Shown here: positions 30,668 to 34,862 of the stretch, in pieces
Layout: each line of letters opens with the position of its first letter
How positions within the stretch are numbered: the first letter of the stretch is position 1
Assembly: GCF_014083985.1 (NCBI RefSeq)
Contig: NZ_CP046907.1
Location: 5,962,501 to 6,026,500 of the forward strand
Reading direction: 5' to 3'
Length of the DNA stretch: 64,000 bases
Source: Streptomyces sp. SCUT-3
Lineage (GTDB): Bacteria > Actinomycetota > Actinomycetes > Streptomycetales > Streptomycetaceae
The notes under the pieces: generated by a model
Database searches by the model: none
What the model was told of the DNA's origin: nothing
The model's input: the letters and a program-made list of their open reading frames with translations, nothing else
Made by a program: the position numbers and the translations under genes

Positions 30668-31351
30668 GTGCGACTGACCCCCACGGAACGCGACAGGCTG
30701 CTGCTCTTCGGCGCCGCCGAGCTCGCCCGGACCCGCCGGGCCCGCGGGCTGCGGCTCAACGTCCCCGAGGCGACCGCCCTGATCGCGGACACCGTCTGCG
30801 AGGCGGCCCGCGACGGCCGGCGGCTCGCGGAGGCGATCGAGGCGGCCCGCTCGGTCCTCGGCCCCGGCGACGTCCTGCCCGGGGTCGCCGACATCGTGAC
30901 CGAGGTGCAGGTGGAGGCCGTCTTCGACGACGGCACCCGGCTCGCGGTGGTCACCGACCCGATCGGCGGCGGCGGGGGAGAGGACGCCCCGGGCGCGCTG
31001 TTGCCGGGCCCCGCGCACGCCGAACCGGAACCGGCCCTCGTGCTGACCGTGCGGAACACCGCCGCCGTGCCCGTCGGCGTCACCTCGCACTTCCACTTCT
31101 TCGAGGCCAACCCGCGCCTGCGGTTCGACCGCGCGGCGGCCTACGGCATGAGGCTGTGCGTCCCGGCCGGCTCTTCGGCGCGCTTCGACCCGGGCGGGGA
31201 GACCGAGGTCGGGCTCGTGCCGATCGGCGGGGACCGGGTCGCGGTCGGCTTCGCGGGCCTGGTCGACGGCCCGCTGGACGCGCCCGGCGCGAAGGAGGAG
31301 GCGCTGCGCAGGGCGGCGGCCTGCGGCTACCTGGGCGCGGAGGAGGCGTGA
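30668..31351 (+). CDS. ureA: Urease gamma-beta fusion subunit
   Basis: The product is 227 residues. The first 100 are UreA/gamma ([20 protein letters not shown], then [12 protein letters not shown]). The last 110 are UreB/beta ([20 protein letters not shown], then [20 protein letters not shown]). The two are joined by a Gly-rich linker (GGGGGED). Such fusions occur in actinobacterial ureases. With UreC it forms the nickel enzyme that hydrolyses urea to ammonia and carbamate. AGGAGG precedes GTG 30668. Its stop overlaps the UreC start as TGATG. Confidence 0.9.
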
Positions 31352-33033
31352 TGGACCCGTACGCGTACGCCTCCGTGCACGGCCCCCGCGCGGGCGACCG
31401 GGTCCGGCTCGGCGACTCCGGGCTGGTCGTGCGGGTCGAGTCCGACGCGCAGCTGCCGGGCGACGAGTTCCTGGCCGGATTCGGCAAGACGGCCCGCGAC
31501 GGCCTGCACCTGAAGGCCGCCGCCGTGCGCGAGACCTGCGACGTCGTGATCAGCAACGTGCTCGTCCTCGACGCCGTGCAGGGCATCCGCAAGATGTCGG
31601 TCGGCATCCGCGAGGGGCGCATCCACGCCCTCGGACGGGCCGGGAACCCGGACACCCTCGACGACGTGGACGTGGTCGTCGGCACGGGCACCTCGATCGT
31701 CTCCGGCGAGGGCCTGATCGCCACCGCCGGCGCCGTCGACACCCACGTGCACCTGCTGTCGCCGCGCGTCATGGAGGCGTCGCTCGCCTCCGGGGTCACC
31801 ACGATCGTCGGCCAGGAGTTCGGCCCTGTGTGGGGCGTCGGCGTCAACTCGCCCTGGGCGCTGCGCCACGCCTTCAACGCCTTCGACGCCTGGCCCGTCA
31901 ACATCGGCTTCCTGGCCCGCGGTTCGTCCTCGCACCCCGCCCCGCTGGTGGAGGCGCTCGCCGAGGGCGGCGCCTGCGGTTTCAAGGTCCACGAGGACAT
32001 GGGCGCGCACGCCAGGGCACTGGACACGGCGCTGCGGGTCGCGGAGGAGCACGACGTGCAGGTCGCCCTGCACAGCGACGGACTGAACGAGTGCCTGGCC
32101 GTCGAGGACACCCTGCGCGTGCTGGAGGGCCGCACCGTCCACGCCTTCCACATCGAGGGCTGCGGCGGCGGCCACGTCCCCGACGTGCTCCGGATGGCCG
32201 GGGTGCCGAACGTCATCGGCTCCTCCACCAACCCCACCCTGCCCTTCGGGCGCGACGCGATCGCCGAGCACCACGGGATGATCGTCTCCGTCCACGGACT
32301 CAAGCCCGACCTGCCGGGCGACGCGGCCATGGCCCGCGACCGGATCAGGGCCGGGACGATGGGCGCCGAGGACGTCCTGCACGACCTCGGCGCGATCGGC
32401 ATCACCTCCTCGGACGCCCAGGGCATGGGGCGGGCCGGCGAGACCGTGCGCCGCACCCTCGCCGTGGCGGGGAGGATGAAGGCCGTACTGGGCCCGCTGG
32501 AGGGCGACGGGGACTGCGACGACAACGCCCGCGTCCTGCGCTACCTGGCGAAGCTGACGATCAACCCGGCGATCGCCCACGGCCTCGCGCACGAGATCGG
32601 CTCGATCGAGGTCGGCAAGCTCGCCGACATCGTGCTGTGGCGCCCGGAGTTCTTCGGCGCGAAGCCGCAGCTCGTCCTGAAGTCGGGCTTCCCGGCGTAC
32701 GGGGTGACCGGCGACCCGAACGCCGCCACCGACACCTGCGAACCGCTCGTCCTCGGACCGCAGTTCGGTGCGCACGGCGCGACGGCGGCCGACCTGTCGG
32801 TGGCCTTCGTCTCGGACGCGGCCGCGCAGGCGGGCGCCGACGCGATGCCCACCCGCCGCCGCAGGGTCGCCGTGCGCGGCACCCGCGGCATCGGCCCGGC
32901 CGACCTGCACCTCAACTCCCGCCTCGGCGACGTGGCCGTGGACGCCCGCACCGGGCTGGTCACCCTCGACGGCGAACCGGTCCGCTCCGACCCCGCCGAC
33001 ACCGTCCCCCTCAACCGCCTCTACTTCCTGTGA
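31351..33033 (+). CDS. ureC: Urease alpha subunit (divergent, no accessory genes nearby)
   Basis: The product is 560 residues. Nickel-site residues are present: H-x-H in [10 protein letters not shown] (about 131), the carbamylated Lys in GFKVHEDMG (about 211), His in ALHSDGLNE and GGGHVPD, and Asp in [10 protein letters not shown] (about 353). The active-site flap differs from the usual MVCHHLDP: here it is VSVHGLKP, so the flap Cys is Val and the second His is Gly, while the catalytic His is kept. No ureD, E, F or G is in the window, so maturation must use genes elsewhere. This matches a second, divergent urease type seen in streptomycetes; urea hydrolysis is likely but not certain. Confidence 0.88.
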
Positions 33034-33044
33034 GGAACCCCTCC

Positions 33045-34072
33045 ATGACCCCGCCCGCCTTCCGCATGCCCGCCGAGTGGGAACCGCACGAGCGCACCTG
33101 GATGGCCTGGCCCCGCCCCAACCCCACCTTCGCCGGAGCCGGGGAGCTGGCCGCCGCCCGTGAGGCCTGGGCCGCGGTGGCCCGCGCCGTGCGCCGATTC
33201 GAGCCGGTGACGGTGGTCGCGGCGCCCGGGACTCCGCGTCCGCCCGCGAACTGCTCGGCCCCGGCGTCGACCTGGTCGAACGCCCCCTGGACGACGCGTG
33301 GATGCGCGACATCGGCCCCACCTTCGTCACCGACGGCGACGCACTCGCGGCCGTCGACTGGACGTTCAACGGCTGGGGGGCGGCCGACTGGGCGCGCTGG
33401 GAGCACGACGCGGCGATCGCCCGCGAGGTCGCGGGCCTCGCGGAGGTCCCCGTCCTCTCCTCCCCGCTCGTCAACGAGGGCGGCGGCATCCACGTCGACG
33501 GCGAGGGAACCGTCCTGCTCACCGACACCGTCCAGCTCGGCCCCGAACGCAACCCGGGGTGGAGCCGCGAGGAGGTCGAGGCCGAGATCCACGCCCGTCT
33601 CGGCACGACGAAGGCGATATGGCTGCCGCGCGGGCTGACCGCCGACTACGGCCGGTACGGCACGCGCGGCCACGTCGACATCGTCGCCGCCTTCGCCCGC
33701 CCGGGCGTCGTCGTCGCCCACACCCAGCCCGACCCGTCCCACCCCGACCACGAGCCCTGCCGGGCCAATGTGGAACTGCTGCGGTCGCAGACGGACGCCC
33801 GCGGCCGCCGCCTGGAGGTGGTCGAGGTCCCTGCCCCCACGGTCCTGCGGGAGGACGGGGAGTGGGTCGACCACTCCTACATCAACCACTACCTCTGCAA
33901 CGGCGGCGTCGTGCTGTGCGCCTTCGGCGACCCGCGCGACGAGACCGCGGCCGGCGTCTTCCGCCGCCTCTTCCCGGACCGGGAGGTCGTCCAGGTCGAC
34001 GCCCGCCCGATCTTCGCCGGAGGCGGCGGCGTCCACTGCATCACCCAGCAGCAGCCCAGGGTGCGCGGGTGA
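33045..34072 (+). pseudogene. aguA: Agmatine deiminase, single-base deletion in a G run
   Basis: From ATG 33045 the frame gives [17 protein letters not shown], the family N-terminus, up to VTVVAAPG. It then breaks at GGG 33228-33230. One extra G restores the join [15 protein letters not shown] and the rest: [41 protein letters not shown] and the catalytic Cys near the end in GGGGVHCITQQQP. The repaired protein has 342 residues, the normal length. The enzyme turns agmatine into N-carbamoylputrescine and ammonia. It follows ureC by 11 bp with its own GAGG site, so it is probably co-transcribed with urease. Confidence 0.85.
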
Positions 34073-34089
34073 TCGGGTAGAACGTAGGG

Positions 34090-34242
34090 GTGAACCCACC
34101 GCTTCCCGCCCACGGCATCCCCACCCCCGGGGCCCGTCACCACATGAACCACGGCCACAGCCACGCCCACGGTCACGGCCACGGCCACGGATCCGGCGCG
34201 TCCCGGGGCGGCGCCCTCCCGGACGGGGAGGCCGCCGCGTGA
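34090..34242 (+). CDS. Histidine-rich 50-aa ORF, possible metal-binding peptide
   Basis: GTG 34090 opens a 50-residue frame with ten histidines. The core is MNHGHSHAHGHGHGHGSG (residues 19-36), an alternating His/Gly-Ser-Ala array like the Ni-storage tails of UreE, HypB and SlyD. The stop overlaps the next gene as GTGA, a strong sign of translational coupling. A TAGAAC box lies 7 nt before the GTG, so it may be leaderless. Position after urease genes suggests nickel or zinc binding; this is inference, and the frame is short enough that chance cannot be excluded. Confidence 0.55.
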   Translation: MNPPLPAHGIPTPGARHHMNHGHSHAHGHGHGHGSGASRGGALPDGEAAA

Positions 34243-34862
34243 CTCCGCCCGCACGGCGGCGCACCCCCGCGCCGCCCCGGGAGAAGGTCTTCGCCGCAGC
34301 CATGGCGACCGTCGCCGAACGCGGGCTCGACGGGCTCACCATGGCCGGGCTCGGCCGCGAGGTCGGGATGAGCAGCGGCCACCTCCTCTACTACTTCCGC
34401 ACCAAGGACGAGCTCCTGCTGCAGACCCTGGAGTGGAGCGAGGGCCGCCTGGGCGCCGAGCGCGGTGCGCTGCTGTCCCGGCGGGCGCCGGTGCGGGAGC
34501 GCCTGGACGCGTACGTCGGCCTCTACGTGCCCGACGGGCCCCGCGACCCGCACTGGACCCTGTGGCTGGAGGTCTGGAACCGGTCGCAGAACGCCGGTGA
34601 CGACGCGCGCGCCCGCCAGGCCGCCATCGAGGGGGCCTGGCACCGCGACCTGGCGGCCCTCCTCGCCGAGGGCGTCTCGCGCGGGGAGCTGCGTGCCGTG
34701 GACCCGGACCGCTCCGCCACCCGGCTGCGCGCCCTGCTGGACGGCTTCAGCGTCCACGTCGCGGTCGGCCTGCCGGGCACCGGGCGGGCGCAGGCCCTCG
34801 CCCACGTGCGGGAGTTCGTCGAGGAGACGCTGCTGCCCGCCGGCACGTCCGCCGACCGGTGA
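34239..34862 (+). CDS. TetR family transcriptional regulator
   Basis: The product is 207 residues. The HTH is at 18-60 (VFAAAMATVAERGLDGLTMA, then GREVGMSSGHLLYYFRTKDE). The C-terminal ligand domain has LYVPDGPRDPHWTLWLEVWN, the layout of the TetR subgroup (BetI/YjdC-like C domain) common in actinobacteria next to amine or polyamine genes. The GTG 34239 start overlaps the His-rich ORF by 4 bp. Target probably the urease/agmatine deiminase transcript; inferred from position. Confidence 0.85.
   Translation: MTPPARRRTPAPPREKVFAAAMATVAERGLDGLTMAGLGREVGMSSGHLLYYFRTKDELLLQTLEWSEGRLGAERGALLSRRAPVRERLDAYVGLYVPDGPRDPHWTLWLEVWNRSQNAGDDARARQAAIEGAWHRDLAALLAEGVSRGELRAVDPDRSATRLRALLDGFSVHVAVGLPGTGRAQALAHVREFVEETLLPAGTSADR

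Follow-up and report, generated by a model that had tools for sequence, protein, structure and literature searches.

Both leaderless transcription and translational coupling have been described before. In Streptomyces coelicolor, where TANNNT is the -10 motif, leaderless mRNAs arise from 21% of the primary start sites, and the leaderless genes that are named include TetR-family regulators (PMC4895711). Leaderless short open reading frames (ORFs) upstream of genes are described in mycobacteria (PMC4633059) and in S. coelicolor (PMC4895711), and PMC9094748 cites a mycobacterial class of polycysteine leaderless short ORFs that act as attenuators (Canestrari et al. 2020). Of 14 overlapping gene pairs tested elsewhere, 13 showed strict coupling (PMC6728339).

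The locus analysed here resembles each of these systems in part. As with the leaderless short ORFs, a short ORF stands upstream of a gene, with its start codon at the predicted 5' end of the mRNA; in contrast to them, the ORF varies freely, several lineages replace it by direct fusion, and the 5' end is predicted from sequence. The polycysteine short ORFs, as PMC9094748 cites them, are likewise enriched in one residue and lie upstream of a gene, but the enriched residue is not conserved in the present case and no attenuation structure was found at the locus. With ATGA/GTGA coupling the locus shares a stop-start overlap of exactly 4 nt, whether or not an internal Shine-Dalgarno (SD) sequence is present; the upstream partner in that system is usually a full gene, in the present case a short ORF whose content varies and for which we infer the coupling. 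The features below lie in the window, the whole 64,000-nucleotide stretch of Streptomyces sp. SCUT-3 DNA that was analysed.

34076..34092 (+): promoter-like element GGTAGAACGTAGGGGTG, shared upstream of 121 of 158 tetR orthologues
34090..34242 (+): upstream ORF of the coupled class with a His-rich middle, from its translation and from relatives
34149..34190 (+): seven imperfect CCACGG hexamer copies that encode the His array, from Tandem Repeats Finder
34225..34231 (+): SD-like GGGGAGG for tetR, 7 nt before its GTG
34239..34242 (+): GTGA overlap of the upstream ORF stop and the tetR start; ATGA/GTGA in 52 of 52 coupled loci
34239..34862 (+): TetR-family regulator with a BetI-type C-terminal domain, from Pfam TetR_N and TetR_C_6

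The upstream ORF opens with GTG at 34090, contains 50 codons, reads VNPPLPAHGIPTPGARHHMNHGHSHAHGHGHGHGSGASRGGALPDGEAAA, and ends at TGA 34240-34242, which shares bases with the tetR start GTG 34239-34241. Ten of the 50 residues are histidines, seven of them alternating with Gly, Ser or Ala. The sequence-only reading had drawn attention to this His-rich ORF and its GTGA overlap with tetR, and both are present exactly as described. The start and end of the ORF resemble those of short and long ORFs in relatives, and the middle is found in this genome alone.

Orthologues of tetR were gathered by family, genus-level and named-genome searches and from further regions, giving 158 loci after removal of duplicates, with that of the window included; all are from Streptomycetaceae. 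The element TCNGGTAGAACGTACGNGTGA recurs in 121 of them and closes with a start codon, GTG or ATG, at the position that corresponds to 34090; in the other 37 it is missing. The search pattern fixed the core GTA.AAC and the start codon and left the flanking positions free; these free positions are also conserved (TC at -17/-16, GTACG at -6 to -2, and A after the GTG). The pattern TANAACNTANGNGTGA has a single match in this genome. Within the window, a -10-like TAGAAC at 34078-34083 is followed by a 6-nt spacer and then by GTG 34090. This element with its 6-nt spacing predicts a leaderless transcript, even though the hexamer ends in C rather than the T of TANNNT and a sigma-70 scan gave no match. 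An SD-like motif precedes the GTG of the element in only 14 of the 121 loci, and the window has only an AGGG directly abutting GTG 34090, with no SD sequence at the usual distance.

The 121 loci fall into three arrangements. In 68 the GTG lies in the TetR reading frame, so that it is most simply the TetR start, and the fused extensions comprise anything from a few residues to about 120 (e.g. VSQSSSPPHHPRRRNQ). It begins a gene of 158-166 codons in 24 further loci and a shorter ORF of 10-108 codons in 28, the window among these. All 52 loci with the long gene or a shorter ORF overlap tetR by ATGA or GTGA. Relative to tetR, the GTG is in phase 0 (fused) in 68 loci, in phase 2 in 53 and in phase 1, where neither fusion nor overlap coupling is possible, in none of the 121, a raw count that overstates the number of independent cases because the loci are related by descent. 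Among the phase-2 loci, 52 of 53 have the -1 overlap. The sole exception, L041, is a fused-type locus whose frame is shifted by one base within a C run, possibly through a sequencing error.

These counts bear on the alternative that the frame is open by chance, with GTG 34090 unused and translation of tetR depending only on its own SD sequence. Long stop-free frames are common in GC-rich DNA, and GGGGAGG stands 7 nt before the tetR GTG. This explanation is nonetheless unlikely, given that element and GTG are kept in 121 loci, that phase 1 never occurs, that the overlap survives truncations (see below), and that the same GTG would begin TetR itself in the fused loci. Additionally, an SD-like motif is missing before tetR in 28 of the 52 coupled loci. 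In the window the SD-like GGGGAGG belongs to the codons for ...GEAAA in the upstream ORF, with GGAGG in the equivalent position in L010, L038, L108 and others; since tetR has this SD-like sequence of its own, coupling in the window may be loose or partial. The predicted RNA fold is no better than that of shuffled sequences (z 0.22), and this lack of unusual structure gives no sign of a hidden tetR SD.

It is considerably less probable still that a one-base error hides a fused form in the window, in which the His-rich segment would be an N-terminal extension of TetR. The nearest orthologues (L009, L011, L118) are fused, the agmatine deiminase gene upstream is itself frameshifted, and L041 resembles such a case; on the other hand, the end of the window ORF, GGAGGCCGCCGCGTGA, agrees with the coupled loci L010 and L108, and the fused L009 has ACG in place of the start, with no SD sequence there.

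The product of the long gene (VNVLLCAACGRRLTEPV...LPDAVRVEAAA, 158-166 codons) has no Pfam or NCBIfam name. Its family is Cys-rich, with 158-166 residues, and stands upstream of tetR in L033, L036, L097, L098, L101 and others. Relatives of the gene occur at many other places across Streptomycetaceae, and before tetR it has been shortened repeatedly. In a tree of tetR DNA the long gene is confined to one clade of 43 loci. Within this clade it was truncated separately at least nine times (L079, L166, L194, L199, L168/L175, L159, L100, L087 and L155), and the overlap was retained each time. With deletion lengths unconstrained modulo 3, retention by chance would have a probability of about (1/3)^9 = 5e-5 by our calculation on this tree.

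Whether the window ORF is itself a remnant of the 158-166 codon gene was also considered. Deletion from the long gene is an attractive origin, but by eye the two share only VN... and ...EAAA, and this origin was not adopted. The best match of the long protein in this genome (E 0.046) is at another place. The window lies outside the clade, on weakly supported branches near the fused L009, L011 and L118. The SD-like GGAGG of tetR explains the C-terminal EAAA that both have, and L025 and L085 have a homologue of the long gene on the upstream side of the element instead. For these reasons we do not claim that the window ORF derives from the long gene; change may have run in either direction.

The His array coincides with the seven hexamer copies and is absent from the loci of all 157 relatives, a comparison set that includes one genome of the window's genus, its own. 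The array is lineage-specific within this set. Short leaders of relatives, such as VNEMLRAPAAA and VKPPPPEAAA, have no His run, and L072, L094, L163 and L196 have weaker clusters (six His in 20 residues) before tetR in one frame or another. A whole-genome search with a pattern of seven alternating CAY codons gave six matches at four distinct places, compared to nine for the reversed control pattern, and at least ten His per 50 stop-free codons are also found at two other places in the 64-kb window, in other frames. Together with the hexamer repeat, these findings show that the array is not exceptional for GC-rich DNA here. The same segment is expanded in some fused loci, where the N-terminal extension of TetR contains repeat-like GGASAPTGGASAQ... 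(L141) or EARAPEARA... (L030, EARAP units) at the place of the His array; judging from these, the segment can accommodate expansions that differ in sequence. The histidines are best read as a side effect of a short repeat in the DNA, with expansion of CCACGG as the presumed cause.

The genes upstream of the element had suggested other roles for the histidines.

30668..31351 (+): fused urease gamma/beta subunit gene (ureAB), from Pfam and NCBIfam
31351..33033 (+): ureC, urease alpha subunit, with the start placed at a TGATG overlap; named from its sequence and neighbours
33045..34072 (+): agmatine deiminase gene (aguA), frameshifted near 33221-33232, from a family scan and the protein of relatives

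The protein of relatives aligns with aguA in frame +1 before 33221-33232 and in frame +3 after it, which points to decay of the gene or to an error in the assembly. Among the titles and abstracts listed by a literature search there was no paper on a urease-agmatine deiminase cluster in Streptomyces. The urease had been said to lack accessory genes, and in a search of the whole genome UreD and UreF genes were not found and UreG had only a weak UreG-like match, whereas UreF is present in 175 of 200 genomes of the family. The urease encoded at 30668-33033 may or may not mature to an active enzyme in such a genome. As a separate observation, the flap Cys of MVCHHL, a Cys-His motif that we take to be conserved in classical ureases, seems to be replaced in the UreC encoded at 31351-33033.

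A functional nickel or zinc buffer, or a metallochaperone for this neighbouring urease, would fit ten His in 50 residues next to urease genes in a genome where UreD and UreF were not found. Such a role is very improbable, since no relative with the same cluster has the His-rich frame, the hexamer repeat accounts for the array, and the array is no commoner than its control pattern. The peptide also has no family match in Pfam or NCBIfam, and the ORF shows neither the conserved His-rich stretch nor the family domain that marks proteins of the UreE, HypB and Hpn type. The buffer and the chaperone fragment that the sequence-only reading had offered both fail on the absence of the array from all 157 relatives and on the missing family match; conservation of the His codons in related loci, on which that reading had staked the frame, was looked for and not seen.

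A third suggestion, a leader peptide that controls tetR, survives in altered form. The start signal and the stop-start overlap recur in relatives, which favours a leader; action through the His codons is not borne out. A histidine-responsive leader, in which ribosome stalling at His codons would control tetR as in amino-acid attenuators, has in its favour a His-rich frame directly before a regulator and the precedent of polycysteine leaderless short ORFs, which work in this way in mycobacteria according to the citation in PMC9094748 (Canestrari et al. 2020). We give it hardly any weight, because the leaders of relatives have no His run, the fold does not rise above shuffles, no terminator-like structure was found, and TetR is not a histidine gene. 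A conserved run of controlling codons followed by alternative hairpins or a terminator, as in attenuators, was not found.

We therefore favour an upstream ORF that is translated leaderless and passes its ribosomes on to TetR by termination and reinitiation, its histidines stemming from CCACGG expansion, and give this reading a probability of roughly two in three. It is preferred to a role for the histidines because the start signal and the tetR overlap alone recur in relatives and the His array does not. The element at 34076-34092 would be the promoter, with the transcript beginning at or next to GTG 34090, from which the upstream ORF would be translated leaderless. The ribosome would terminate at TGA 34240 and reinitiate on the overlapping tetR GTG 34239, helped in the window by GGGGAGG at 34225-34231. 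The ORF would then serve as a device for ribosome entry and hand-over, with hardly any constraint on the sequence and length of its peptide. Among relatives this GTG is instead fused in frame to TetR or opens a gene of about 160 codons, and in the window the middle of the ORF would have been lengthened by expansion of the hexamer repeat, giving the histidines.

The His feature itself appears to have an ordinary explanation, and the pattern behind it, from comparison of the loci, is a conserved start, phase and overlap with an unconstrained peptide. The case is a caution that function should not be read into amino-acid-rich short ORFs of GC-rich genomes. More tentatively, with the odds a little below even, selection may keep the reading phase alone: peptide and length would be irrelevant as long as ribosomes that start at the GTG reach TetR by fusion or by overlap, and lineages could switch between these solutions and whittle a full gene down to 10-24 codons while keeping the hand-over. 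About 120 natural variants of one leader separate what is conserved (start signal, phase and overlap) from what is free (the peptide), and with this set termination-reinitiation from leaderless mRNAs can be put to a direct test in streptomycetes.
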